Below, one piece after another: positions 1-11,380 of a stretch of 11,380 nucleotides of DNA. A program made the position numbers and the translations under genes. Location of the stretch: the NCBI GenBank assembly GCA_948750805.1, contig CAPZYV010000021.1, forward strand, positions 1 through 11,380. Direction: 5' to 3'. A model generated the notes under the pieces. That model had not been told where the DNA came from. It did no database searches and was given only the letters and a program-made list of their open reading frames with translations. The number at the start of each line of letters is the position of its first letter. Positions within the stretch are counted from its first letter, which is position 1. Source of the DNA: an uncultured Bacilli bacterium. Its GTDB lineage: Bacteria > Bacillota_I > Bacilli_A > RF39 > UBA660.

Positions 1-160
1 ATTTTATCTATTCTAACAACTAATATTATAGAAATCTTGTGTAAACTTATAAGTGATATATTATTCTATCATTAGCCACTTCAATAGGTTTTAGATGGAT
101 TATTAATTTCTATATGAAACTATTTTGTAAATTTTAAATTATCATAAAATTTTTATTTAA
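1..160. other. AT-rich intergenic stretch, no gene seen
   Basis: No reading frame of convincing length or with a ribosome binding site is present on either strand. A perfect TATAAT on the minus strand (25-30) has no good -35 partner at the right distance, so I do not call a promoter. Any gene to the left must begin outside the window, which leaves at least 160 bases after the small-RNA terminator. Confidence 0.6.
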
Positions 161-162
161 AT

Positions 163-186
163 AAAAAAGTGGAGCCTTTCGGCTCC
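163..186 (-). terminator. Rho-independent terminator of the small RNA (and probably recG read-through)
   Basis: On the minus strand, GGAGCC (186-181), a GAAA tetraloop (180-177) and GGCTCC (176-171) form a perfect 6-bp GC-rich stem. It is followed by AC and six T (168-163). There is no U-tract on the plus-strand side, so it acts in the minus direction only. recG has no terminator of its own between its stop and this hairpin, so it likely stops recG transcripts too. Confidence 0.85.
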
Positions 187-258
187 TTCAGGGGGTTTTG
201 GTTGACTCACTTTCACATTAAGTCGTAAAAGTGACTCGGACATGACGTTTATCATGTC
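163..258 (-). ncRNA. Predicted small structured RNA, about 96 nt, family not recognised
   Basis: This is a free-standing transcription unit after recG. It is about 47% GC (41 of 88 bases at 171-258) inside flanks well below 25%, the usual signature of a structured RNA in an AT-rich genome. Reading 5' to 3' on the minus strand, the predicted start falls at GACATGA, which pairs with TCATGTC (258-239, 6-nt loop). A second hairpin pairs TCACTTTTAC (234-225) with GTGAAAGTGA (216-207): 10 bp with one G-U and an 8-nt loop. Next comes an unpaired segment, CAACCAAAACCCCCTGAAG (about 205-187). Last is a terminator hairpin GGAGCC-GAAA-GGCTCC with six U. No long reading frame lies within it. I do not recognise a known riboswitch, 6S, SRP or tmRNA pattern. 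The C-rich segment resembles seeds that Gram-positive small RNAs use against ribosome binding sites (inference). A cis-leader of a gene left of the window is possible but less likely, since no start codon with a ribosome binding site follows within 160 nt. Confidence 0.75.
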
Positions 259-264
259 ATAATA

Positions 265-293
265 ATCATATTATGTTTTTAGATTTTTGTCAA
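265..293 (-). promoter_or_regulatory. Consensus sigma-A promoter of the small RNA
   Basis: TTGACA (293-288), a 17-bp spacer and TATGAT (270-265) on the minus strand: a perfect -35, ideal spacing and a 5-of-6 -10. Initiation 6-8 bases downstream falls at about 257-259, exactly where the 5' hairpin of the RNA begins. It is the best -35 box of the promoters I can see in the window, implying strong expression. Confidence 0.8.
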
Positions 294-317
294 TTACATT
301 TATTAAACTTTTTACAT

Positions 318-2303
318 TTAATTTAATCTTTCTAATTCTTTAATTATTTTATAATATGACATATTGTTTTTATAAGCTCCAGAATTTAGATATTCTTCAC
401 TATCATTTTTAGCTTGCATCATTATTTTTAAATCAGTTTTTAGATTGGCAATTTTAAAATTTTTGACACCACTTTGACGTATACCAAATAAATCTCCTGC
501 ACCTCTTAGTTCTAAATCACGTTCAGCGATATAAAAGCCATCATTGCTTTCTTCTAAAACTTTTAGTCTTTCGATTTCATTATCACTTATTAAATAACAA
601 TAGCTATCAAAAGAGTTTCTGCCAACTCGTCCTCTTAATTGATGTAAAGTAGCAAGACCAAATCTTGAAGCATCAAATATAACCATAATAGTCGCATTTT
701 TAACATCTACGCCTACTTCAATAACAGTAGTAGATATTAATATTTTAGTTTCATTGTTTTTAAATCTTGTCATGATTTCATCTTTTTCTTTTTGTTTTAA
801 TTTACCATGTAATATTTCAATAGGAATAACATTTTTATAAGCTAAATTAAATTTTTCTTTTAATGTTTCAATACTTTTTAAATCTAACTCTTCATTGTCA
901 TCAATTAATGAAGCAACAACATATACTTGATGACCATTTTTTATTTCTTGTAAAATATGGGTTAGAACCTCTTTTAAATCACTATATTTTTTTATTTTAG
1001 TTATTATTTCTTTTCTTCCACTTGGTTTTTCTTTAATAAAAGAAACATCTAAATCACCATATAATGTTAAAGCATAGGTTCTTGGTATAGGAGTTGCACT
1101 CATGTAAAGAGCATCTGGTACTTCCCCTTTACTTTTTAAAATTTCTCTTTGTTTTACACCAAAACGATGTTGCTCATCGGTAATAACTAAGCCTAAACGG
1201 TAAAATATTACACTTTCTTCTATAATGGCATGCGTCCCAATTAATATATCTATATCTCCATTTATAAGTTTATTTTTTACATTATCTTTTTCTTTTTTGG
1301 TCATACTTCCTACTAATAAAGCAATATTTAAATTATTAGTTCGAAAATAATTCATGGCACTTTCAAAATGTTGTCTTGCTAAAACTTCTGTGGGAGCCAT
1401 TAAAACACTTTGGTAACCTGCTAATGAGTTAGCATACATAGCTATAAAACTTATAATGGTTTTGCCACTTCCAACATCTCCTAAAACTAAGCGATTCATT
1501 TTTTTAGTACTTTTTAAATCATTAATAATTAATTTTAAAGCTTCATTTTGACTATCGGTCAATATAAATGGTAAAGATTTTACAAATTTATCAATTTCGT
1601 TTTTATCAATTATTTTTTCTTCTTTTAAAAGATTTTTATTATCTTTTTTCATATAATTTATCTTAAACATAAATAAAAATAATTCTTCATATTTAAAATA
1701 AAGACTCGATTTTTTTATTTCTTCAAATGTTCGAGGCCTATGAATCATCCTTAATGCTTCTAACTTACTTACAAAGTTATATTTATCTATAAAACTGTCT
1801 GGAATATATTTAAAAACCTTTTTGGTATCCATTAAGGCATTATCTATTATTTTACGCATTTCACTGGCTTTTATATTTTTATTAGTATGATATATAGGGA
1901 CTATTTCTTTTTTACTCAATGCAGTTAATTTAATATCATCACAGATAAATGTATTTTTTTTCTTATCATATTTACCAACTAATGTTATAGTGTTTCCTAT
2001 TTTAATATGAGGACGTAAAAAAGCTCGATTAAAAATTACAGCATACATTGATTTATTATTATGAGTACAGCGAAATTGAAGTTTATTAAAGTTTCTTTTG
2101 ATATAAGCTGTTGTAGCAGCTGTTTCTGGAATTACATTGATGGCTATTCTTTCTCCATTATAATCATCATTTAAATTTATAGGTTCAAAAATATCATATC
2201 GATAAGGATAATTTTCTAATAAATCTTCCATGGTATTTATATTTAACTCTTTTAAATTCTCAAGCATTTTAGGACCTACGCCTTTAATATCACTTAATTC
2301 CAT
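318..2303 (-). CDS. recG: ATP-dependent DNA helicase RecG
   Basis: RecG is a superfamily 2 double-stranded DNA translocase that regresses stalled replication forks and processes branched recombination intermediates. The 661-residue product has the expected order. The N-terminal wedge opens with MELSDIKGVGPKM. Walker A GDVGSGKT is at about 275-282, DEQHRFG at 376, SATPIPRT at 402, TTVIEVGVDV at 525, QLRGRVGR at 555, and the RecG-specific LRGAGDLFGIRQSG at about 599. Length is normal for the family, and I see no missing motif. I chose the ATG at 2303-2301 rather than the in-frame ATG 33 bases upstream: it has a well-placed AGAGGT and starts like other RecG proteins, and the upstream ATG lies within or before the predicted -10. 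It is transcribed separately from the upstream wall operon. Downstream on the same strand lies the small-RNA gene, whose promoter starts 25 bases after the stop. Confidence 0.97.
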   Translation of the reverse strand: MELSDIKGVGPKMLENLKELNINTMEDLLENYPYRYDIFEPINLNDDYNGERIAINVIPETAATTAYIKRNFNKLQFRCTHNNKSMYAVIFNRAFLRPHIKIGNTITLVGKYDKKKNTFICDDIKLTALSKKEIVPIYHTNKNIKASEMRKIIDNALMDTKKVFKYIPDSFIDKYNFVSKLEALRMIHRPRTFEEIKKSSLYFKYEELFLFMFKINYMKKDNKNLLKEEKIIDKNEIDKFVKSLPFILTDSQNEALKLIINDLKSTKKMNRLVLGDVGSGKTIISFIAMYANSLAGYQSVLMAPTEVLARQHFESAMNYFRTNNLNIALLVGSMTKKEKDNVKNKLINGDIDILIGTHAIIEESVIFYRLGLVITDEQHRFGVKQREILKSKGEVPDALYMSATPIPRTYALTLYGDLDVSFIKEKPSGRKEIITKIKKYSDLKEVLTHILQEIKNGHQVYVVASLIDDNEELDLKSIETLKEKFNLAYKNVIPIEILHGKLKQKEKDEIMTRFKNNETKILISTTVIEVGVDVKNATIMVIFDASRFGLATLHQLRGRVGRNSFDSYCYLISDNEIERLKVLEESNDGFYIAERDLELRGAGDLFGIRQSGVKNFKIANLKTDLKIMMQAKNDSEEYLNSGAYKNNMSYYKIIKELERLN

Positions 2304-2322
2304 ATCGATTACCTCTTTAATA

Positions 2323-2351
2323 ATTATAACATGCAAAAAGAAGAATTTCTA
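2323..2351 (-). promoter_or_regulatory. Probable recG promoter (extended -10)
   Basis: TATAAT (2328-2323) is preceded by TGT, giving an extended -10 (TGNTATAAT). A weak -35 TAGAAA (2351-2346) lies 17 bases upstream. The predicted start at about 2316 gives a leader of about 13 bases that still contains the AGAGGT ribosome binding site of the 2303 start. It overlaps the terminator of the upstream gene, so one operon ends and recG begins within about 50 bases. Confidence 0.6.
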
Positions 2352-2365
2352 TTTTATTCTTCTTT
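2335..2365 (-). terminator. Terminator of the wall operon, overlapping the peptidase stop codon
   Basis: On the minus strand AAAGAAGAAT (2365-2356) pairs perfectly with ATTCTTCTTT (2346-2337) across a 9-base loop and continues into T residues (five in a row counting the end of the stem). The stop codon of the C39-like gene (2354-2356) sits at the stem-loop junction. The AT-rich stem makes it of moderate strength. Confidence 0.6.
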
Positions 2366-3241
2366 ATTGTTAACTATCTTTTTAAATAATACTTTAATGG
2401 AAACCGATTGTCTTCCTAAGGAATCATAACTTTTTTCCAAAACTTCTTTTTTCACTTTAATATTTTTTTCGTTTTTTAAAGGGTCATTTAGATAATAATA
2501 TTCTTCATCATATCCAGTTAGGACAACAACATGTTCATTTTTAGGATAAGTATAAGTTTCACTTTTATCGTAACTAGTCCAAGTAAATATTTCTTTAGCT
2601 TCATGATAATCTATGGTAATCCATATTAAAGATGGTCCGTTATATGCTAAATTTTCTAAAGGTTCTATATTAGTTTTTAAATTAGGAGCTAAATCAGGAT
2701 TTTTTTCAGCTAATATTTTATTAATAGTTTTTGCTATAACTATATCGAAACATCCCCATCCACCTGTTTCGCTTTTAGGGTCACCAGCGTAAAATAAAGC
2801 TGGATTAGGTCCATATCTAGTTCCATTTTCTATATATATTTTATCTTTTGGCAAGTAGTTAAAAAATTCTTCTAGTGTAATATCTATACCATAAAATTTA
2901 AGAAGCATAACAGCTGATGCTGCTTCACAACCATTAGGATAATCTGGCAATTGACTAATTAAAGGGACATCATAAATCTCTTTTTTATTTATATATTTAT
3001 CTTCTAAAAACTTATTTTCTGCTATATTAGGATATTCATATATATAGTTGTTTTTTTCATATCTTTTTATGCTGTTTGTAAGTATTAATTGATTGCTATA
3101 ATAGTCATTAGTAAGAGGTGGAATAAGCGAGTTTTTTACCCGCTTTATTTCTCTATTATATATTTTGTACCAGCAAAAATTAGTACCTAATATAATTAGC
3201 ACTAAGCTAATAAATATTATTTTATCTTTTTTTAATTTCAA
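2354..3241 (-). CDS. Membrane-anchored C39-like cysteine peptidase
   Basis: The 295-residue protein has a hydrophobic segment at about 8-25 after a lysine-rich start, with no clear signal-peptidase site, so it is probably a signal anchor with the catalytic part outside the cell. The papain-fold C39-like (Peptidase_C39_2) signature is visible: VPLISQLPDYPNGCEAAS (about 92-109) holds the oxyanion Gln97 and nucleophile Cys105, and HVVVLTGYD supplies His237. LNDP (251-254) supplies the third residue, Asn252 or Asp253. No ABC transporter domain is present, so it is not a bacteriocin exporter. It is the last gene of the operon, 20 bases after the cohesin-like gene. The start is TTG at 3241-3239; there is no ATG alternative near the N-terminus. 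The site upstream is GGGGG six bases before the TTG. The substrate is unknown; processing of a surface protein or peptide cross-links is inference from context. Confidence 0.85.
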   Translation of the reverse strand: MKLKKDKIIFISLVLIILGTNFCWYKIYNREIKRVKNSLIPPLTNDYYSNQLILTNSIKRYEKNNYIYEYPNIAENKFLEDKYINKKEIYDVPLISQLPDYPNGCEAASAVMLLKFYGIDITLEEFFNYLPKDKIYIENGTRYGPNPALFYAGDPKSETGGWGCFDIVIAKTINKILAEKNPDLAPNLKTNIEPLENLAYNGPSLIWITIDYHEAKEIFTWTSYDKSETYTYPKNEHVVVLTGYDEEYYYLNDPLKNEKNIKVKKEVLEKSYDSLGRQSVSIKVLFKKIVNNKEE

Positions 3242-3252
3242 TTTAATCCCCC
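3239..3252 (-). promoter_or_regulatory. Unusual translation start: GGGGG site with TTG start
   Basis: The peptidase gene starts at TTG (3241-3239), preceded at 6 bases by a run of five G (3252-3248) instead of the AGGA/GAGG type used by most other genes in this window. The upstream ATG overlapping the G run is followed by TAA after two codons, so it cannot be the start. A weak start codon plus a pure-G site suggests low or regulated translation. Confidence 0.6.
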
Positions 3253-3261
3253 ATTATTTTT

Positions 3262-4833
3262 TTATTTTTTCTTTTTCTTCTTTTTATCATCGGCAAATAA
3301 GTCATAAATTTCTTCAGTATCTTCTGTAACTTCAGTTATTTTATTATTTTTTACTTTTATTTCTTTTACATCAACATCTTTTTCCGCTTTTTTCTTTTCT
3401 TCTGCATTTTCATTTGATTTAGTATTATTTTGTTTCTTTTTATTTTTAACTTTATTTTCAGCTTCTGTAATCTTTTTAACTTCATCTACAACATCATTTA
3501 ATTTTCTCGTTGCTTCAATTTTAGCTTCTTGTTTTTGTAAAAATTTATTAAGTTTTTTTTGTTTTCTTTTTAAGCTATGAAGTAGACTAAAAATTATAAT
3601 TAACATTACTACTAAAGCACTAGCAAAAGTTATAATTATATATGTATAATTCTTAATAGTTTCTTTAGTATCATTAATATATGTTTCATCGAATTTTTGA
3701 GCAGTTTTATTAACAGTATCATATAAATATAAATCTGTTTTACCATCAGCAAGATTAATGGCATTAATTACAACAAATTTACTATCTTCGCTATATTTAT
3801 ATGCATCATATTTTTCATTGTTAATTGTAACTGTAGTTTTTATTAAATCAAGTTTTTTTGTAAAAGAGGTCGGAACTAGCATATTGCTATTTAAACTCAT
3901 TTCTTGATAAAATTCATATTTATCATTTTCATATTTAAACAAAGATATAGTGCCAAAAGAATCTTTTAAGCCAACTAAAGTTATTTTAGCTGCTTCATTA
4001 ACAAATCCTGGAATATCATATCCTTTAATTTTTACCGTTGTTTCTTTAAACGTTGTTGGAGTTGTTAATAATGAAGCATTTTTGATTACAGTATAGGTTT
4101 TATTATCAACGGTTACATTAATCGGATTTTGGTCTTCAACATTTATAATAACTTTATAAGTTCTTTCGCTTCCGTTTTGCGCTGTAACAATAATTGGTAC
4201 TGTATTTAATCCTTCTGATACTTCTATTTCGCCTGTACCACTAACTGATGATTTAGCATCATTAGCAACTGCTTTTATATTTACTTTTTCTGTACCAGTT
4301 GGTACATTAACTTTATATTCAAGAGTTTCTTTATTAAATTGAGGTTCTAAGTTATATCCTTCTATACTGATACTTTTTAAATAATTATCTTTACTAAAGG
4401 TAGCTTCTAACTCTTTTTGTGTCATTATTTTTATTGTTTTACTTGATGATGATAAGCTCATTTCATTAATATTGGCATAATCATATGCAAGGTAGCTTCC
4501 AACTGAGATAATAGTACTTCCTTTTTTCAATGCTTTAAAAGAAAAAGTATACGTTTTCTTTTTTGTCCCAGTTGGCGATGAATTAGCCATCATAGTACCA
4601 TTAGATTCTGCTGAACTACTTAATAATTTTAAATAATTTTTATCATAATTTAAATCCATTTGCCAGGAACCAATTGATGTTGAGCTTGATAAGGTAACTG
4701 TTACTGTTACTCTATTATTTTCAACAACAGTGGATGGACCACTAACAGTTATTTTTCCACTGGCAGCATTTGCTTTAATAGGTACTAAGAGTACTGCTAT
4801 TAAAAATACTAATACTAAGTTAATTTTTTTCAT
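3262..4833 (-). CDS. Membrane protein with cohesin-like and cadherin-like beta-sandwich domains
   Basis: The 523-residue protein starts with a signal peptide (cleavage near ANA-A, about 24). Residues about 27-136 look like a cohesin domain: ITVSGPSTVVENNRVTVTVT, then GSWQMDLNYDKNYLKL, then a TYTFSFKALKKGSTIISV strand pair. Residues about 144-233 are a cadherin-like beta-sandwich repeat, with LKSISIEGYNLEPQF at its start and ending GSERTYKVII. A further extracellular region I do not recognise follows (about 238-390), then one transmembrane helix (397-418) and a cytoplasmic tail of about 105 residues that is very Lys/Glu-rich and ends in seven Lys. There are no cysteines. It is the middle gene of the operon, 14 bases after the dockerin-bearing glucosaminidase, with AAAGGA upstream of its ATG. 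The most direct reading is a membrane receptor for that dockerin; this is inferred from domain pairing, and the cohesin call rests on pattern only. Confidence 0.8.
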   Translation of the reverse strand: MKKINLVLVFLIAVLLVPIKANAASGKITVSGPSTVVENNRVTVTVTLSSSTSIGSWQMDLNYDKNYLKLLSSSAESNGTMMANSSPTGTKKKTYTFSFKALKKGSTIISVGSYLAYDYANINEMSLSSSSKTIKIMTQKELEATFSKDNYLKSISIEGYNLEPQFNKETLEYKVNVPTGTEKVNIKAVANDAKSSVSGTGEIEVSEGLNTVPIIVTAQNGSERTYKVIINVEDQNPINVTVDNKTYTVIKNASLLTTPTTFKETTVKIKGYDIPGFVNEAAKITLVGLKDSFGTISLFKYENDKYEFYQEMSLNSNMLVPTSFTKKLDLIKTTVTINNEKYDAYKYSEDSKFVVINAINLADGKTDLYLYDTVNKTAQKFDETYINDTKETIKNYTYIIITFASALVVMLIIIFSLLHSLKRKQKKLNKFLQKQEAKIEATRKLNDVVDEVKKITEAENKVKNKKKQNNTKSNENAEEKKKAEKDVDVKEIKVKNNKITEVTEDTEEIYDLFADDKKKKKKK

Positions 4834-4847
4834 TTCTTTTTATCCTT

Positions 4848-6587
4848 TCATTGTTTTATAGTATAATTACCTAAAATTTGTCTTTGAATTTCGAGTAAAT
4901 CTTTAGCATTTATTATACCATCGCCAGAAGTATCCCCAGCTAATTTATATTCATTATTAAAATTGTATGTTCCTAAAATATTTCTTTGAACTTGAAGTAA
5001 ATCTTTGGCATTTATTATACCATCGCCAGAAGTGTCCCCATGAATAACTACTGTATAAGTTTTTTCTTCGCTGTTATTTTTGATAGTTACTTTGTAACCA
5101 GTACCGATAAGTCCACTACTTACGCTTTTATCATCGGCATTAGTTATTGTTATATGGCCATTGCCTGCTATAGATTCTAAATTATTTTTAATTGTCTTTA
5201 TTTCTGTATTTGGTTTTATACCTTTAATATAAGAGTTTGATACTTTATAACCTGCAGATGTTATTATAGTAGGAATTGACGTTTTACTTGGTGATGATGA
5301 TGAATTATTTTCATCGTCAACCGCACCATTTCCACTATTATCAATTGTTTTGTTCATATTTTTATAAACCGGGATATAGAAGGCAAAGGCACTATCAAGT
5401 AATCCCATATTCTTATATGTATTATATGTTGTACTTGATTCGCTTGAAGGTGCTGCTAAATTTGTCATATATTGGTTTAAATATAGATTATTTGGAGCCG
5501 TAGGTGCGACATTAAATTTCTGTAAATATGAAGTAAATTGACCTTTATTTAAATAATTATTTACAAGAAGTGATGCCCCTCCTTTTATAGCATTAAATGG
5601 AGTATTCCAGCCTCTATTTTTGGCATATCCTAAACCACACGAAACAATTGTATTAGAACATGAGCTAGTAACACCTATATTATAAAAATTATAATAGCCA
5701 TAGTATTTTTTGTCATTACCAGTATAAACACCACTATATAAACTATATAAAGAAGTACCTGTTCCAAGTTCTTGATACATTCTTGATGCTAATGAAATTG
5801 GATTTATATCTAATTCTTTTCCAGCTGTATTAGTTAAACCTGAGAAATCCACATTTTTACCGATATGATATTTATAAAAAGAGGCTTTTGATAACATTTT
5901 ATTTATTGCTGTTGTATAAGAAGAGGAAAGCGCTGCTTCATATTTTAAATATTCAAATTGAAAAATATAGTTTTCTGTTAAAAAGTTTCTTGGGTCCATA
6001 TAGAAAGCTACAGCTTTTTGAGAAGCTCCTTTAAATGGTCCTTCATCAACATGGCATGTAGGGTCAATAAATGAAGAATTAGATGTTGCAATTTTACTTT
6101 TTCCACAAGAACTTTCTTTTTCAACTGCTATACTCCACTCTAAATTAGTTGAAATAGCTTTAAATGTCCAATTAGGATGCTTATCTTTAAGTTCACATAA
6201 ACCTTTCCAATAACTAGATGGAAAACCTGCTTTTTCCATTTCTTTTTCGCATACACTATTTGCTGTAGAGTCATCAGTTTCATTTTTATCAACTCGTACA
6301 TAACTACTACAAACATATGCTTTTTCATTATTATATTCAATTTGATACCATCCAGCATCACAATTTCCATTTTGTTCTTCATCAGCAATTATTTCAGTAC
6401 TCATTAAATTATATGTACTTCCTACACTTCCCGTTTTTAAAGTAGAATATTTAGTAGATGGCCCTTTTCTAATATTTACATTATTTAATAAAACAACATA
6501 TTTAGTTTCAGCATTAGTTGGCATTATTAGACAAAAAAAGACAAAAATAAAGATTAAAAATAGTTTTAACTTATTATTATTCTTCAT
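4848..6587 (-). CDS. Secreted SH3 / endo-beta-N-acetylglucosaminidase with C-terminal dockerin
   Basis: This is a 579-residue exported wall hydrolase. Signal peptide: about 1-26 (NA-E site). SH3-type wall-binding domain: about 28-100 (NVNIRKGPSTKYSTL is typical). Catalytic part: about 130-410, of the clostridial beta-N-acetylglucosaminidase type (GH73-like). It shows YMDPRNFLTENYIFQFE, SLASRMYQELGTGTSLYS with probable catalytic Glu273, and YYNFYNIGV. After a Ser/Asn linker comes a small beta domain (about 438-515). The C-terminus is a textbook type I-like dockerin: two copies of GDTSGDGIINAKDLL (517 and 551) with calcium ligands at positions 1, 3, 5, 7 and 12. Expected activity is cleavage of GlcNAc-MurNAc bonds in peptidoglycan. 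Eight cysteines outside the signal peptide are unusual for a secreted Bacillota protein. It is first gene of the operon, with promoter at 6613-6641 and AGGTGA five bases before the ATG. Confidence 0.92.
   Translation of the reverse strand: MKNNNKLKLFLIFIFVFFCLIMPTNAETKYVVLLNNVNIRKGPSTKYSTLKTGSVGSTYNLMSTEIIADEEQNGNCDAGWYQIEYNNEKAYVCSSYVRVDKNETDDSTANSVCEKEMEKAGFPSSYWKGLCELKDKHPNWTFKAISTNLEWSIAVEKESSCGKSKIATSNSSFIDPTCHVDEGPFKGASQKAVAFYMDPRNFLTENYIFQFEYLKYEAALSSSYTTAINKMLSKASFYKYHIGKNVDFSGLTNTAGKELDINPISLASRMYQELGTGTSLYSLYSGVYTGNDKKYYGYYNFYNIGVTSSCSNTIVSCGLGYAKNRGWNTPFNAIKGGASLLVNNYLNKGQFTSYLQKFNVAPTAPNNLYLNQYMTNLAAPSSESSTTYNTYKNMGLLDSAFAFYIPVYKNMNKTIDNSGNGAVDDENNSSSSPSKTSIPTIITSAGYKVSNSYIKGIKPNTEIKTIKNNLESIAGNGHITITNADDKSVSSGLIGTGYKVTIKNNSEEKTYTVVIHGDTSGDGIINAKDLLQVQRNILGTYNFNNEYKLAGDTSGDGIINAKDLLEIQRQILGNYTIKQ
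4870..5040 (-). repeat. Two 69-bp direct repeats encoding the dockerin halves
   Basis: Segments 4870-4938 and 4972-5040 are direct copies 102 bases (34 codons) apart, with 62 of 69 bases identical by eye. Each encodes one calcium-binding F-hand half of the dockerin. Most differences cluster at one end. The 31-base stretch spanning the calcium loop differs in none of its bases between the two copies. Confidence 0.85.
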
Positions 6588-6612
6588 ATTATCACCTACT
6601 TATATTACTATA

Positions 6613-6641
6613 ATTATATAACATATATAGTAGTAGCTCAA
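6613..6641 (-). promoter_or_regulatory. Promoter of the glucosaminidase-cohesin-C39 operon
   Basis: On the minus strand, TTGAGC (6641-6636), a 17-bp spacer and TATAAT (6618-6613). The -10 is perfect and the -35 matches at four of six. The predicted start at about 6606 gives a leader of about 19 bases carrying the AGGTGA site. It diverges from the LCP promoter, with 47 bp between the two -35 boxes. Confidence 0.7.
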
Positions 6642-6700
6642 GAAAGTATAAGAAAGTATTAGTAAATATATTGTAAATACATTAATTGTTGAAAGTAAAC
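6641..6700. repeat. Helically phased 10-bp direct repeats between divergent promoters (candidate operator)
   Basis: AGAAAGTATA (6641-6650) and AGAAAGTATT (6651-6660) are near-perfect tandem 10-mers, followed in phase by weaker AGTAAATATA (6661-6670) and TTGTAAATAC (6671-6680). Another GAAAGTA occurs at 6691-6697, next to the plus-strand -35. A 10-bp period places all copies on one face of the helix, as for tandem sites of response regulators. The pattern does not fit the WalR consensus (TGTWAH-N5-TGTWAH). The regulator is unknown. Confidence 0.45.
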
Positions 6701-6717
6701 ACAATATATTATATAAT
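6689..6717 (+). promoter_or_regulatory. Promoter of the LCP gene
   Basis: TTGAAA (6689-6694), a 17-bp spacer and TATAAT (6712-6717) on the plus strand: five of six at the -35, perfect -10 and ideal spacing. The predicted start at about 6724 gives a leader of about 34 bases. AGGG lies seven bases before the ATG. Confidence 0.75.
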
Positions 6718-6757
6718 ATAATTATATATAAAATATAATAAAAGATAGGGTTGGAAT

Positions 6758-8749
6758 ATGAAAGTATTAATAAATAAATTAAAGAAAGCTAATAAATGCT
6801 TTTTAACAGTCTATATAATAACATTTATAGCATATATAATAAGCTATATACTACTTGTAAATAATTTAATAGGATTAACTGGAATAGAAACAGTAATTAG
6901 ATTTATTGTAATTGGCTTATTTGGAGGATGGTTAATCGCTTATTTAATATGGAATTTAATTAATCTAATACTTAAAAGACATATAACTATAGCGATTACT
7001 ACATCTTTAACTATTATCTTTGTAGTATTATTTAGTTTTATTAATTATTATATTAATGTAATTTATACTGGTATTGGTAATTTAACTGAATCAGAATATG
7101 TTACTTATACTTCTAATTTAATAGTTTTAAATAATACTAAGTTAAATAATAATAGTAAATTAGGTATGATTAATAGTACTGATGATATTGAAGGTAATGT
7201 ACTAGCTAAGGAATTAATTAAAAATGAAAATTTAGATGATTTAGAAATAGTATCTTACTCTAGCTATTATGAAATGGTATATGATTTATTAAATAAAGAA
7301 GTTGATGGAATATTTTTAAATTCAAATTATAAAACTATTTATGATAGTGATGATTTTGCTGGGTTAAATGATTCAACTATTTTATATACTTTTAGTAAAA
7401 AAATGAAAAATCAAGATACTAATATTACGAGTAACAAAAGTTTAAAAGAACCTTTTACTATTTTACTTTTAGGCGTTGATTCAACTAGTGGAAATATTGA
7501 TTCAAGTTCTTCATTTAATGGTGATACTTTAATGCTTATTACTTTTAATCCTAAGACATTAAATGCGACAATGTTTTCTATACCAAGAGATACTTATGTA
7601 CCAATTGCTTGTAATAATAATCGCTATGCTAAAATAAACTCAGCGGCAGCTTATGGGACAAATTGTGTTATTGATACAGTAAAACAGCTTACAGATGTTG
7701 ATATTGATTATTATGTTAAAGTTAATTTTAAAGCGGTTGTCGATTTAGTTGATGCTTTAGATGGTGTTGATGTTGATGTAGAACCTCCTACATATAAAGC
7801 TTTTTATAATGCTTATAATGGACGTGTTTGTGAGCAAAATTCGTTAAGACAAAAAGGTGAACATTTAGTTTGTATGGATACTGGTATGCAACACTTAAAT
7901 GGTGAACAAGCATTAGCTTATGCTAGATGTCGTCATGCTTATTTATTAAGTGATATAGCTAGAAATAAGCATCAACAACAATTGATAGAGGCGATTGCTA
8001 AAAGAATTGCTAATCCATCTAATATTAATAGAATTGAAGAGCTTTTGAATGCTGTTACTAACAATTTAGCAACAAATATGTCAAAAAATCAAATTTTATC
8101 TTTATATGACGTTTTAAAAAATATGGTATTAAAATCTTTTGGGGATGGAGACTTCTTATCAATCCAAAAAACATATTTAGAGTGGTATAATTTATCTGTT
8201 AAGTTAAGCAATAACGGTATTGCAACTTCGGCAGTTGGTTATTATCCTGATTCTTTAAAAGCAATAATTAATTTAATGAAAGCTAATTTAGAATTAGAAG
8301 AAAAACAAATTGTTAAAACTTTTAGTTTCGATGCTAATGAAAACTATAAAACAAAAGTTACAGGTCAAGGAATAACAACTGGTGGAAAACTTGAAGTTAT
8401 GCCAAACTTTATTGGTTCAAGCGTTAGTGAAGTAGAGGCATGGGCTAGTGAACGAGGTATTGTTTTACATAAAGAATTTGTAGATAGTAATAGTAAATAT
8501 TATAATCCTAATGTTAATGCTGGTTTAGTAGCAAATCAAAGTGTTAGTATGAAAGTATTAGTTTTAAATGTAAAAGAACTTACTATTTATATAAATGAAG
8601 CTTCTAATAATAATTTAGGTGGAAATACACCAAATACTGATAATCCAAACGATAATAAAAATGAAGATAATCAAGATAATAATCAGAATACTGATAATCC
8701 TTTAGATATAATTTTACCTAATGATGATGAACAAAATAAAGAAGACTAG
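6758..8749 (+). CDS. LytR-CpsA-Psr (LCP) family glycopolymer ligase with PASTA domain
   Basis: The 663-residue membrane protein belongs to the LCP family, whose members move lipid-linked teichoic acid or capsular glycopolymers onto peptidoglycan outside the cell. Three N-terminal transmembrane helices (about 14-35, 45-70, 76-100) replace the usual single one. Residues about 118-215 look like part of a solute-binding-protein fold (KLGMINSTDD at the start, YEMVYDLLNKEVDGIFLN later). The LCP domain spans about 230-456: LLLGVDS, GDTLMLITFNPKT (Asp256), SIPRDTYVP (Arg277, Asp278), KINSAAAYG, LNGEQALAYAR (Arg390) and ARNKHQQQLI (Arg402), with all the usual metal and pyrophosphate-binding residues. 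A PASTA-like domain (about 545-612, starting LEVMPNFIGSSVSEVEAWA) follows, then an Asn/Asp-rich tail. Extracellular cysteines fall in likely pairs (285/303, 358/372). It is monocistronic, divergent from the glucosaminidase operon, and its stop lies in a terminator stem. The exact polymer is unknown. Confidence 0.95.
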   Translation: MKVLINKLKKANKCFLTVYIITFIAYIISYILLVNNLIGLTGIETVIRFIVIGLFGGWLIAYLIWNLINLILKRHITIAITTSLTIIFVVLFSFINYYINVIYTGIGNLTESEYVTYTSNLIVLNNTKLNNNSKLGMINSTDDIEGNVLAKELIKNENLDDLEIVSYSSYYEMVYDLLNKEVDGIFLNSNYKTIYDSDDFAGLNDSTILYTFSKKMKNQDTNITSNKSLKEPFTILLLGVDSTSGNIDSSSSFNGDTLMLITFNPKTLNATMFSIPRDTYVPIACNNNRYAKINSAAAYGTNCVIDTVKQLTDVDIDYYVKVNFKAVVDLVDALDGVDVDVEPPTYKAFYNAYNGRVCEQNSLRQKGEHLVCMDTGMQHLNGEQALAYARCRHAYLLSDIARNKHQQQLIEAIAKRIANPSNINRIEELLNAVTNNLATNMSKNQILSLYDVLKNMVLKSFGDGDFLSIQKTYLEWYNLSVKLSNNGIATSAVGYYPDSLKAIINLMKANLELEEKQIVKTFSFDANENYKTKVTGQGITTGGKLEVMPNFIGSSVSEVEAWASERGIVLHKEFVDSNSKYYNPNVNAGLVANQSVSMKVLVLNVKELTIYINEASNNNLGGNTPNTDNPNDNKNEDNQDNNQNTDNPLDIILPNDDEQNKED

Positions 8750-8777
8750 TTATAAATCATAATTAGTCTTCTTTTTT
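8733..8777. terminator. Bidirectional terminator shared by LCP gene and trxB
   Basis: AAAGAAGACTA (8738-8748) pairs perfectly with TAGTCTTCTTT (8764-8774). The stem continues through one G-T and four A-T pairs to a 5-base loop (8754-8758), 16 pairs in all. On the plus strand it runs into six T (8772-8777); on the minus strand into TTTATTTT (8740-8733). The LCP stop (8747-8749) and the trxB stop (8765-8763) both lie in the stem, so both proteins end in the same residues, Lys-Glu-Asp. Confidence 0.9.
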
Positions 8778-9647
8778 GCTGATATTTATAGCGGCTGTTG
8801 CCCCTTCACTTGCAGCATTTATAATTTGATAAATACTCTTTTTTATGACATCCCCCGATGCATAAACACCTTTTATATTAGTTTCATTATTATCATCAAC
8901 GACAATATATCCATCTTCTATTTTTAATTCTGTATTTTTTAGGAAAGGCGTGTTAGGAATAAAGCCAATATATATAAACATACCACTAACTTTAATTTCT
9001 CTATCCTTTAATTTTAAGCCACAAAGTTTATTATCATTAGTAATAAGGTTAATAACATTGTTATTAGTTATAATCTCAATATTTTTAATATTTTTAATTT
9101 GTTCTTGTAAAGTACTTTCAGCTCTAAATTCTGCTCTTCTGTGGATAAGATATACTTTATTAACAATTTTAGATAAATATATAGCTTCAGATAAGGCACT
9201 TGAACCCCCACCTATAATTGCTACATCTTGATTTTTAAAGAACGCTCCATCACATAAAGCACATGTACTAATTCCATGACCAAGATATTTCTCTTCATCT
9301 TTGATTCCAAGTAATCTAGGCTTTCTTCCACTTGCAATTAATAAATATCTACTTTGATAAACATTATTTTTAGTTTTTACAGTTTTAATAGGTTCTAAAA
9401 TAACATCCGTTACTTCTTCTATTTTGTATTCTATTCCTAACTCTATTATCTCGTTATATAAGTTAAATGCTAAATCAGGTCCACTTATGCTTTTAATACC
9501 AGGATAATTCTCGATATTTGGAATAACATTTAAAGTACCCCCTGGAGCTCCCTTCTCTAACATTAATATATTTAAGCCTGCTCTTTTAGCGTATATAGCC
9601 GCACTTACTCCTGAAACTCCCATACCTATAATTATTAAGTCGTACAT
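8763..9647 (-). CDS. trxB: NADPH-dependent thioredoxin reductase
   Basis: This cytoplasmic flavoenzyme passes electrons from NADPH through FAD and a Cys pair to thioredoxin. The 294-residue length is slightly short for the family (usually about 305-320). FAD-binding GMGVSG is at 8-13 and ENYPG at 46-50. The redox motif CALCDG has Cys129 and Cys132. The pyridine-nucleotide loop is GGGSSA (146-151), with HRRAEFRA (169-176) for the NADPH phosphate. The C-terminal FAD motif is VYASGDVIKKSIYQIINAASEG. Deviations from the most common forms are Ser for Asp/Asn in GGG(D/N)SA and Tyr for Arg in the usual K-x-RQ stretch. A divergent paralogue (a different disulfide partner) therefore remains possible. 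The ATG at 9647 has the strongest ribosome binding site in the window, AAGGAGG. It lies 39 bases after lgt on the same strand, a pairing also found nearby in other Bacillota chromosomes. Confidence 0.92.
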   Translation of the reverse strand: MYDLIIIGMGVSGVSAAIYAKRAGLNILMLEKGAPGGTLNVIPNIENYPGIKSISGPDLAFNLYNEIIELGIEYKIEEVTDVILEPIKTVKTKNNVYQSRYLLIASGRKPRLLGIKDEEKYLGHGISTCALCDGAFFKNQDVAIIGGGSSALSEAIYLSKIVNKVYLIHRRAEFRAESTLQEQIKNIKNIEIITNNNVINLITNDNKLCGLKLKDREIKVSGMFIYIGFIPNTPFLKNTELKIEDGYIVVDDNNETNIKGVYASGDVIKKSIYQIINAASEGATAAINISKKED

Positions 9648-9686
9648 AAATTTCCTCCTTATTTGTAATATAAAATTTTTTAACAG

Positions 9687-10496
9687 CTAATTAATTCTGC
9701 CATTATTAATATCATTATATAAATTCACGTATTTACCTTTACTATTTATATATATTAAGTTTATTAAAGCAGATATGAATAATATTACTGATACTACTTG
9801 TGCTATTTTAAATCCTCCTAACATAAGAGAATCTGTGCGCCATGCTTCAATAAAGAATCTACCAAAACTATACCACATTAAATATATAGATGTAATAGTT
9901 CCAGTTTTGATATATTTAAACCTTCTAATAATTATAAAAATAAGAAAACCTAATATACACCATAAAAATTCAAAATAAAATGTTGGTAAATAATATGTGC
10001 CTCCAATATTCATACCATTTATGATAAATTTAGGTATATATAAATATTCAAGAAAGCTTAAAGATGTAGCAAACCCATGAGCTTCACTATTAAAAAAGTT
10101 TCCCCATCGGCCTATTCCTTGAGCTAAAATTACAGCAGGGACTATAATATCCGTTAGTCTTAAAAAGTTAAGATTTTTCTTTTTAGAATATAAATAAATT
10201 GTAAGAGCTCCAACTATTATGCCTCCATGAATTGCAAGACCTCCATTCCATATTTCAAACATTTCTAATAAATTATATCGATAATAAGATATATTAAATA
10301 AAACATAATATATTCTAGCACCAATAATTCCAAAGATTATGGCATAAAAACACATATCAAAAATATCATCTTTTGAAATATTAAATTTCTTTGCTTCTTT
10401 AATTACTAAAATAAGCCCTATTATAATTCCTATTAAAATTAAAAAAGAATACCATTTTATTTCAATGCCAAATATTGTAAATATTATAGGATTCAT
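9687..10496 (-). CDS. lgt: Phosphatidylglycerol-prolipoprotein diacylglyceryl transferase
   Basis: This integral membrane enzyme transfers diacylglycerol from phosphatidylglycerol to the lipobox cysteine of prolipoproteins, the first step of lipoprotein maturation. The 269-residue protein has about seven hydrophobic segments. It shows GARIYYV (59-65), WNGGLAIHGG (83-92, with the conserved His90-Gly-Gly), the family signature GRWGNFFNSEAHG (129-141) and FGRFFIEAWRTDSLMLG (211-227) with the C-terminal conserved Arg. The frequent HPT-x-LYE motif appears as LPTFYFE, so the His is replaced by Leu. The start ATG at 10496 is preceded by AGAGGA. It is the first gene of an lgt-trxB operon; no terminator separates it from trxB. 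An intact lgt implies that the organism makes lipoproteins. Confidence 0.97.
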   Translation of the reverse strand: MNPIIFTIFGIEIKWYSFLILIGIIIGLILVIKEAKKFNISKDDIFDMCFYAIIFGIIGARIYYVLFNISYYRYNLLEMFEIWNGGLAIHGGIIVGALTIYLYSKKKNLNFLRLTDIIVPAVILAQGIGRWGNFFNSEAHGFATSLSFLEYLYIPKFIINGMNIGGTYYLPTFYFEFLWCILGFLIFIIIRRFKYIKTGTITSIYLMWYSFGRFFIEAWRTDSLMLGGFKIAQVVSVILFISALINLIYINSKGKYVNLYNDINNGRIN

Positions 10497-10520
10497 ATAT
10501 TTCCTCTTTCTATTACAATA

Positions 10521-10549
10521 ATTATACTATAAATATCATGAAAAAAAAA
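10521..10549 (-). promoter_or_regulatory. Possible lgt-trxB promoter
   Basis: TATAAT (10526-10521) lies 24 bases before the lgt ATG. Seventeen bases upstream there is only a run of T, which is the U-tract of the preceding terminator, so the -35 is poor (TTTTTT). The perfect -10 and its place right after a terminator support it; the missing -35 weakens it. Confidence 0.4.
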
Positions 10550-10603
10550 GAAGCTAATATCTTTAAACAAATTAACTTACAATGTAAGGATTTGTTAAGC
10601 TTC
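10541..10603 (-). terminator. Terminator of the surface-protein gene
   Basis: On the minus strand, GAAGC (10603-10599) pairs with GCTTC (10554-10550). Between them TTAACAAAT pairs with ATTTGTTTAA (one bulge) and CTTAC-ATT-GTAAG caps the structure, followed by nine T (10549-10541). The stop codon of the gene (10574-10572) lies within the hairpin. The stem is long but has an unpaired bulge near its base. Confidence 0.7.
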
Positions 10604-11380
10604 CTTTTTCATCAGTTTCTTTTACTGTAAACTTTGTATCAGCTTTCAGATTTATTACGGGGCGTATTCCAAGTATAGTGTTCGCACGATGGTTAGTAAT
10701 ACGTCCATTAGGAGTAATATAAACCATAAAAGCAAGCACACCGCTAAAGAAAGATGGAGTTAAAGTCCAATAATCTTGTCCATTATATAAATAATATCCA
10801 AAATTATTAATTCCAAATAATCCTCCAGCCATTGAAGCTTCATCTTCAGTTATTAATCCTATGGGATAATTTAAACTTTTATTTCCTTTTGTAGATGAAC
10901 TAGTTGTATATAAGTCCCTTATATTTGCACAGGTTAGTATTGGTAATTTTGTACTATTTTCTAATCTAATATGGGCTCCATAATAAGTTATAGTGGTTCC
11001 TAACCCTCCTAAACTATTACTTGAATCTGAGCTCGTACTTGGTGTTCTATCTCCACAAAATCCGGCATTGGTATCTATCTTATTGGCAAAACTTGCAAGA
11101 TTATTTTGATACCATGTCTCTAACTCTGTTAAGACATTTGACTTTGCCTCAAGTCCGCGTACCTGTCCTGTGGTATATCTAAAACCTACATAGGCGTTAT
11201 CATCAGCATTTGCATTAAATCTTTTGCTTGCTGATGCTATACTATCTGTAGTTACTTCTCCATTTTGATGAGCACTTGTTCCATCATAGATTAGCCTTAT
11301 ACTTCCATCACCATTGATTCTGATGATTCGCCACCATTTATTTGCAAACTTTACATAGTTGTTTTCTACATCTCCTCGGT
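10572..11380 (-). CDS. C-terminal part of a surface-type protein (5' end outside window)
   Basis: The frame is open from the right edge to the stop and shows 268 residues; the last complete codon at the edge ends at 11378. An internal ATG at 10832 is not the start, since the frame and its homology-like motifs continue far upstream. Visible pieces: NNYVKFANKWWRIIRINGDG near the edge, SIRLIYDGTS, a GFRYTTGQVRG stretch, GFCGDRTP, PILTCANIRDLY, then YWTLTPSFFSG and LGIRPVINLKADTKF before the end. The final part resembles DUF6273-type and related domains, where a W/Y-rich strand pair is followed by G(I/V)RPV-x-L; such domains are common in surface and pilin-like proteins of uncultured gut Bacillota. 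Function is unknown and the fold is not certain. GC is about 35% (252 of 720 at 10621-11340) against about 24% in lgt, suggesting different constraint or recent transfer. No signal peptide can be seen because the N-terminus is missing. Confidence 0.75.
   Translation of the reverse strand, partial: RGDVENNYVKFANKWWRIIRINGDGSIRLIYDGTSAHQNGEVTTDSIASASKRFNANADDNAYVGFRYTTGQVRGLEAKSNVLTELETWYQNNLASFANKIDTNAGFCGDRTPSTSSDSSNSLGGLGTTITYYGAHIRLENSTKLPILTCANIRDLYTTSSSTKGNKSLNYPIGLITEDEASMAGGLFGINNFGYYLYNGQDYWTLTPSFFSGVLAFMVYITPNGRITNHRANTILGIRPVINLKADTKFTVKETDEKGSLTNPYIVS

Follow-up and report, generated by a model that had tools for sequence, protein, structure and literature searches.

Examination of an 11,380-nucleotide stretch of DNA from an uncultured Bacilli bacterium of the RF39 lineage (contig CAPZYV010000021.1, positions 1 to 11,380; hereafter the window) revealed two adjacent genes, one coding for a predicted secreted glucosaminidase that ends in a dockerin and the other for a membrane protein carrying a single cohesin. 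Cohesin-dockerin pairs are chiefly known as the code by which polysaccharide-digesting enzyme complexes are assembled. The two products in the window probably form a matched pair (we put the probability at about 0.8), a one-to-one membrane tether in which the dockerin of a wall hydrolase would bind the cohesin encoded by its neighbour. The parts of the pair are the following.

4848..6587, minus strand: SagB-like glucosaminidase, predicted to be secreted, with a C-terminal dockerin, 579 amino acids (open reading frame and domain matches)
6297..6482, minus strand: SH3_3 domain, residues 36-97 (PF08239, E 2.6e-08)
5349..6047, minus strand: glucosaminidase catalytic region, residues 181-413, with conserved Glu273 (NF052642 and PDB sequence matches)
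4872..5042, minus strand: duplicated dockerin, residues 516-572 (PF00404 and covariation)
4834..4847, minus strand: 14-base spacer between the two genes, with AAGGA inside, resembling a ribosome-binding site (direct reading of the DNA)
3262..4833, minus strand: membrane receptor, 523 amino acids, with signal peptide, cohesin, cadherin-like domain, unnamed beta domain, transmembrane helix and basic cytoplasmic tail (open reading frame, Pfam, alignment, structure prediction and hydropathy)
4399..4767, minus strand: cohesin domain, residues 23-145
4141..4380, minus strand: cadherin-like beta-sandwich, residues 152-231 (PF12733, E 7e-09)
3565..3651, minus strand: transmembrane helix, residues about 395-423 (hydropathy; inside a long predicted helix, 383-459)
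3262..3564, minus strand: cytoplasmic tail with the conserved helix KQEAKIEATRKLNDVV and the C-terminal EEIYDLFADDKKKKKKK (alignment of 28 sequences)

The dockerin of the enzyme is complete and duplicated, as the initial annotation had stated: it matches the whole PF00404 profile (1-57) with 39.3 bits against a curated cut-off of 22.9, and both calcium-loop repeats, beginning at D518 and D552, are covered. Loop positions 10 and 11 correspond to residues 527/528 and 561/562 of the enzyme, and positions 17 and 18 to residues 534/535 and 568/569. A search against NCBIfam attributed residues 181-413 to NF052642 (SagB) with an E-value of 9.5e-17, and phmmer matched the enzyme to the solved autolysin glucosaminidases 6u0o, 6fxo and 4pi7 (E 6e-12 to 3e-09). 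The nearest of the PDB matches, 6u0o_B (E 6.3e-12), belongs to an entry titled LYZ2 domain-containing protein, which we take to be SagB. Glu273 is invariant across 32 aligned enzymes and, by analogy with the family, is probably the catalytic residue.

The N-terminal domain of the receptor, when isolated, exceeds the curated cut-off of the cohesin family PF00963 (34.4 vs 24.1 bits); the match appears for the isolated domain only, and a scan with the full-length receptor does not list PF00963. The predicted structure of the domain is a cohesin beta-sandwich, and a cohesin-only profile (A5) matched 13 solved cohesin sequences in the PDB, where searches with the full receptor and with alignment A1 gave no match. 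The initial annotation had proposed a cohesin here and had named a non-cohesin fold as the outcome that would overturn the proposal; both the sequence model and the predicted fold bear the proposal out. The other elements that it had read in this gene, 14 bases downstream of the enzyme, were likewise recovered, namely the signal peptide, the cadherin-like domain and the transmembrane helix. An N-terminal hydrophobic stretch and a transmembrane segment in the C-terminal half were found in all 126 complete receptors. Pfam scans of the window receptor identified no catalytic domain. In 28 aligned close relatives, the window included, the tail helix KQEAK-x-EATRKLNDVV and the terminal YDLF..DDKKKK are strongly conserved, and the tail could connect to cytoplasmic partners.

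The recurrence of the gene pair was examined in relatives chosen by receptor similarity alone, without regard to the upstream gene. A scan of genome contigs yielded 40 receptor loci, from records labelled Bacilli, Bacillota, Mycoplasma, Mycoplasmatota, Tenericutes, Candidatus Caccenecus (placed in Bacilli incertae sedis at NCBI) and, once, Ruminococcus. In the order to which one of these loci, L001, belongs (presumably RF39), the receptor profile matches 255 of 288 genomes at E <= 0.001, although by our count 39 of these matches have E-values above 1e-40 and could stem from the cadherin-like domain alone. From the order-level matches we took 80 further places, these being the next by score without an existing locus and not all matches. 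Of the 151 entries then in hand (150 loci and the window), 145 had upstream DNA, and 132 distinct loci remained once 13 that shared their first 300 receptor residues with another locus had been removed. Strict sequence patterns proved too narrow for this wider set (catalytic motif in 89/132, double calcium loops in 86/132), and profile matches were used instead.

In all 132 distinct loci the adjacent upstream reading frame ends in a match to the dockerin profile, and the gap between the two genes has a median of 11 bases (range -28 to 25). A custom profile identified the upstream partner as a glucosaminidase in 129 loci; among the three others, L019 and L028 are cut by the contig end and L150 matches PF01832. 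A class-level receptor search gave matches in 53 of 395 genomes at E <= 1e-40. Twenty further regions were taken: 15 came from 12 genomes that the order sample did not contain (ten of these genomes have sizes of 2.1 to 3.2 Mb), and five were weaker places of the same order. A dockerin-ended partner was detected by custom profile in 20/20, and 13 of the 15 distant partners scanned with Pfam pass the PF00404 cut-off. Seventeen of the 20 partners are glucosaminidases (11 by PF01832, six by the custom profile), and the remaining three are a GH25 muramidase (L151), an Amidase_2 protein (L163) and a metallo-beta-lactamase-fold protein (L161). Since the partners are glucosaminidases, GH25 and Amidase_2 proteins, the receptor is associated with the class of wall hydrolases, L161 being the single exception observed. 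Three genomes carry two receptor and dockerin-enzyme pairs each, G366 (L151, L152), G575 (L157, L161) and G627 (L156, L163), and the two pairs of a genome differ in enzyme and in dockerin residues. No receptor relative was found among 84 candidate stretches of viral contigs.

Counts over whole genomes agree with a dedicated pairing. Among 21 relative genomes, all contain a dockerin match (a single one in 13) and all contain a PF00963 match at E <= 1, above the cut-off in 17, while of the 33 receptor-less genomes 20 could be tested, and a dockerin match was absent from 18 of these. Together with the adjacency in 132/132 loci and the co-divergence described below, this supports the pairing of enzyme and receptor that the initial annotation had proposed. 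Its picture of one enzyme and one receptor holds literally in the 12 of 21 genomes with exactly one dockerin and one PF00963 cohesin, which are adjacent; the nine others carry additional matches to dockerin or cohesin, or their receptor domain lies outside PF00963. PF00905 transpeptidases occur in 21/21 of the relatives, so a cell wall is expected in them, and according to PMC10868615 most RF39 species are predicted to have a peptidoglycan wall.

After removal of four loci with short domains (L019, L028, L097 and L150) and of 11 redundant ones, 117 of the 132 loci were retained, and the pairwise distances of five domains were compared by partial Mantel tests with 2000 permutations. Cohesin and dockerin distances correlate at 0.78, and a partial r of 0.68 persists when the cadherin-like, third and catalytic domains are removed, a value reached by none of the 2000 permutations. 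The corresponding values with the dockerin are 0.07 for the cadherin-like domain, 0.01 for the third domain and 0.05 for the catalytic domain, and the cohesin and cadherin-like domains of the same protein give 0.08. The association is lower and still reached by 0/2000 permutations in subsets: 0.44 in the 97 loci with unpermuted enzymes, 0.43 without the window's clade (n=70) and 0.37 inside that clade (n=27).

Such a pattern could arise if the neighbouring segments recombined jointly, in which case cohesin and dockerin would co-diverge and need not bind. The two lie within about 0.7 kb of each other, which would fit joint recombination. Equally close segments track poorly in the full set, however: when the linker and the signal peptide were added, cohesin-dockerin stood at 0.67, linker-dockerin at 0.15, linker-cohesin at 0.14 and cohesin-cadherin at 0.04, and the signal peptide, which lies between dockerin and cohesin and is short and noisy, gave 0.09 and -0.07. 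An intact cassette would, moreover, itself suggest matching. Linkage was thus rejected as the sole explanation, which we consider quite improbable, while some contribution from it remains conceivable.

Single sites of the two domains also covary. With all receptor types included, dockerin residues 568, 534, 569 and 535 (loop positions 17 and 18) are the commonest in the top 2% of pairs, a signal that contrasts canonical with short receptor types. Restriction to canonical cohesins (97 loci, effective number 70.7) brings up pairs involving dockerin residues 561, 527, 562, 532, 531 and 565, at loop positions 10, 11, 15 and 14. PMC4728124 gives cohesin-binding loop positions 11, 12, 18, 19, 22 and 23 in its own numbering; these were taken as 10, 11, 17, 18, 21 and 22 here, the offset of one being our reading. 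The top 10, 50 and 100 cohesin-dockerin site pairs include 5, 16 and 24 at these positions, against an expected share of 18%, a maximum of 3, 11 and 20 in 40 shuffled pairings, and 0, 6 and 14 for cadherin-dockerin pairs. The enrichment at contact positions is real against shuffles, and argues against linkage, but it is modest and not unique to the cohesin.

Several observations weigh against a dedicated tether for a SagB-like wall hydrolase. The window enzyme reaches 61.1 bits where the cut-off of NF052642 is 425, which makes it a relative of SagB and not a classed SagB, and PF01832 (Glucosaminidase) had no match in it at E <= 1 in the Pfam scan. The divergence of the cohesin also follows that of the catalytic domain (partial r 0.23-0.50), and therefore the enzyme gene and the cohesin share some history beyond contact itself. 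Within the window's clade (n=27), as linkage would have it, the cohesin-catalytic value of 0.50 exceeds the cohesin-dockerin value of 0.37; the linker also reaches 0.37. Among covarying sites, dockerin residues 541, 548 and 574 also rank high, and the known positions take 4, 9 and 20 of the top 10, 50 and 100 third domain-dockerin pairs and 4, 10 and 13 of the linker-dockerin pairs. The claim that covariation sits at known specificity positions is weakened by this control, since two other domains show some of it too; this result and the window-clade values slightly lowered our confidence. Because the 14-base spacer puts the window genes out of frame, in silico docking used L001 and 11 relatives with a spacer length divisible by three; dockerin, signal peptide and cohesin were folded as one AlphaFold2 (AF2) chain, the natural stop being read as Gln. 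The read-through chain had a predicted TM-score (pTM) of 0.53, with a confident cohesin and a low-confidence dockerin (predicted local confidence, pLDDT, about 40-65), a result neutral as to docking. Farther away, the partners in L151 and L163 fall below the PF00404 cut-off (2 of 15 scanned), and in L161 the metallo-beta-lactamase-fold protein with a dockerin beside the receptor (1336-2556) is no evident wall enzyme. Sortase matches in 21/21 relatives mean that the tether is not explained by missing other anchoring, and the idea of a substitute for an absent sortase was rejected on these grounds; PMC10868615 reports sortases as lacking only in RFN20 and ML615J-28, two related orders.

The pair might instead belong to a larger complex of the cellulosome or mucinolysome kind, in which several proteins make up the scaffold, the receptor among them, and the enzyme is one client of many. 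Extra matches in some relatives (10 to dockerin in G020, and 6 to cohesin at E <= 1 in G014) would fit such a complex, as would the wall hydrolases with dockerins of Ruminococcus cellulosomes (PMC6403190, PMC3573020). The 12 genomes with a single adjacent pair speak against it, and the window receptor, in Pfam scans, has one cohesin and no carbohydrate-binding family, in contrast to a cellulosome scaffoldin. Cellulosome membership was rejected on this domain content and on the single-pair genomes, and we regard the larger complex as very improbable. A receptor that is chiefly a transmembrane activator or sensor, either switching the enzyme on or signalling dockerin binding through its tail, is compatible with tethering and, as the main role, seems unlikely. 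FtsEX acts as a transmembrane activator of its hydrolases, and the juxtamembrane helix and YDLF..KKKK tail conserved in close relatives would suit such a role, as would the orientation of SagB by SpdC (PMC10581084). In the wider set, however, the tail is variable (tyrosine motif in 49/126, basic end in 71/126), and no catalytic domain was found in the receptor by Pfam.

Comparison with described systems places the proposed tether between several of them. It shares with the type I cellulosome pair of Clostridium thermocellum and C. cellulolyticum the cohesin fold, the duplicated calcium-loop dockerin and the enrichment of specificity positions among covarying sites; unlike there, one cohesin sits on a membrane protein beside one neighbouring wall hydrolase, and there is no scaffoldin array. 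In Clostridium perfringens, the cohesin modules (2jh2, 2vo8, 2w1n) are part of secreted glycoside hydrolases that act on host glycans, and they are not known to involve a membrane receptor. SagB is not known to carry a dockerin. SagB of Staphylococcus aureus, which cuts nascent strands to physiological length, is scaffolded by the membrane protein SpdC (PMC10581084), and the window pair resembles this system in that a SagB-like glucosaminidase has a putative partner in the membrane. According to the same source, SpdC is homologous to CAAX proteases, whereas here a single-helix receptor carries a cohesin: the Pfam scan gave no CAAX-protease-like match in the window receptor, and only one helix was found beyond the signal peptide, which places it outside the SpdC/CAAX-protease family. 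Dockerin-bearing wall hydrolases or NlpC/P60 proteins are already known from Ruminococcus cellulosomes (PMC6403190, PMC3573020); unlike here, they are clients of a large scaffold system (more than 220 dockerin proteins in R. flavefaciens; PMC3573020) and not half of a dedicated neighbouring pair. The mucin-degrading cohesin-dockerin system of Limousia concerns host glycans (PMC12997984). In the open-access literature searched, no paper described a cohesin receptor dedicated to a wall hydrolase.

In the proposed tether, the glucosaminidase would be exported, and its dockerin would fold with calcium and plug into the one cohesin that caps the membrane receptor encoded next to it. The cadherin-like and unnamed beta domains would serve as a stalk, with the basic tail beneath the membrane. 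The enzyme, whose substrate is presumably peptidoglycan, would thereby be kept on the outer membrane face, where new glycan strands emerge, and from diffusing through the wall or away. Strand trimming as in SagB-SpdC is the least certain part of this scheme and is put forward tentatively, at somewhat less than even odds.

Part of the wider set departs from the window in both proteins. The glucosaminidase domain is circularly permuted in 23 of 129 enzymes with a catalytic match (L031, L034-L038, L105, L112-L117, L121, L127, L129, L130, L133, L137, L139, L142, L143 and L145) and also in L170; a script flagged 16 of the 23, and inspection of its table by eye added the other seven. In these enzymes the N-terminal part (FP-x-SY ... 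YNFYNIG) follows the C-terminal part (W-x-TP-x-AI-x-GG ... IP-x-Y-x-NM), each being present once, and a literature search on circularly permuted glucosaminidases returned nothing. At these loci the first domain of the receptor is a shorter Ig-like domain of about 100-110 residues, in two groups, A6 (L031, L034, L036, L112, L115, L129 and L137) and A7 (L038, L105, L113, L114, L116, L117, L121, L127, L130, L139, L142, L143 and L145). Pfam detected a cohesin in 0/7 of A6 and 1/13 of A7 (E 0.14), while profile comparison with cohesins gave probabilities of 84 and 93 for A6 and A7, and of 41 for A6 vs A7. The dockerins partnering these receptors carry different residues, GATDYVKIKN or NSADLLKMRQ.

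The remaining genes of the window include another wall gene, the divergent neighbour at 6758-8749 (plus strand), which codes for an LCP-family glycopolymer transferase with a weak PASTA match. Next in the row after the receptor, at 2354-3241 (minus strand), lies a gene whose product matches the C39-like peptidase family (PF13529, 1.6e-18). A relative of it adjoins the pair in only one of the first 40 loci, L001, some of these loci being on contigs that stop too early to judge. An open-ended frame of 268 residues at 10572-11378 (minus strand) has no Pfam or NCBIfam match at E <= 1, and Rfam at gathering scores gave no match over the window.

Taken more broadly, the pairs may represent an ancient tethering system distributed over part of the Bacilli, for which we see about an even chance. 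Each receptor and its neighbouring wall hydrolase would hold a private cohesin-dockerin pair, the pairs would diversify in step, and some genomes would keep two with different enzymes. In part of the group the dockerin would have moved to a shortened Ig-like domain that no longer matches the cohesin family, and the whole would form a wall-remodelling branch independent of polysaccharide digestion. If the tether is real, the cohesin-dockerin code is turned to the wall of the cell itself, with a single receptor for each hydrolase, and the pair has largely been retained in genomes near 1 Mb. This points to a way in which gut Bacilli, mostly uncultured and with small genomes, would keep their autolysins under control, and the more than 100 naturally neighbouring, diverged cohesin-dockerin pairs would offer a ready set for learning specificity determinants.

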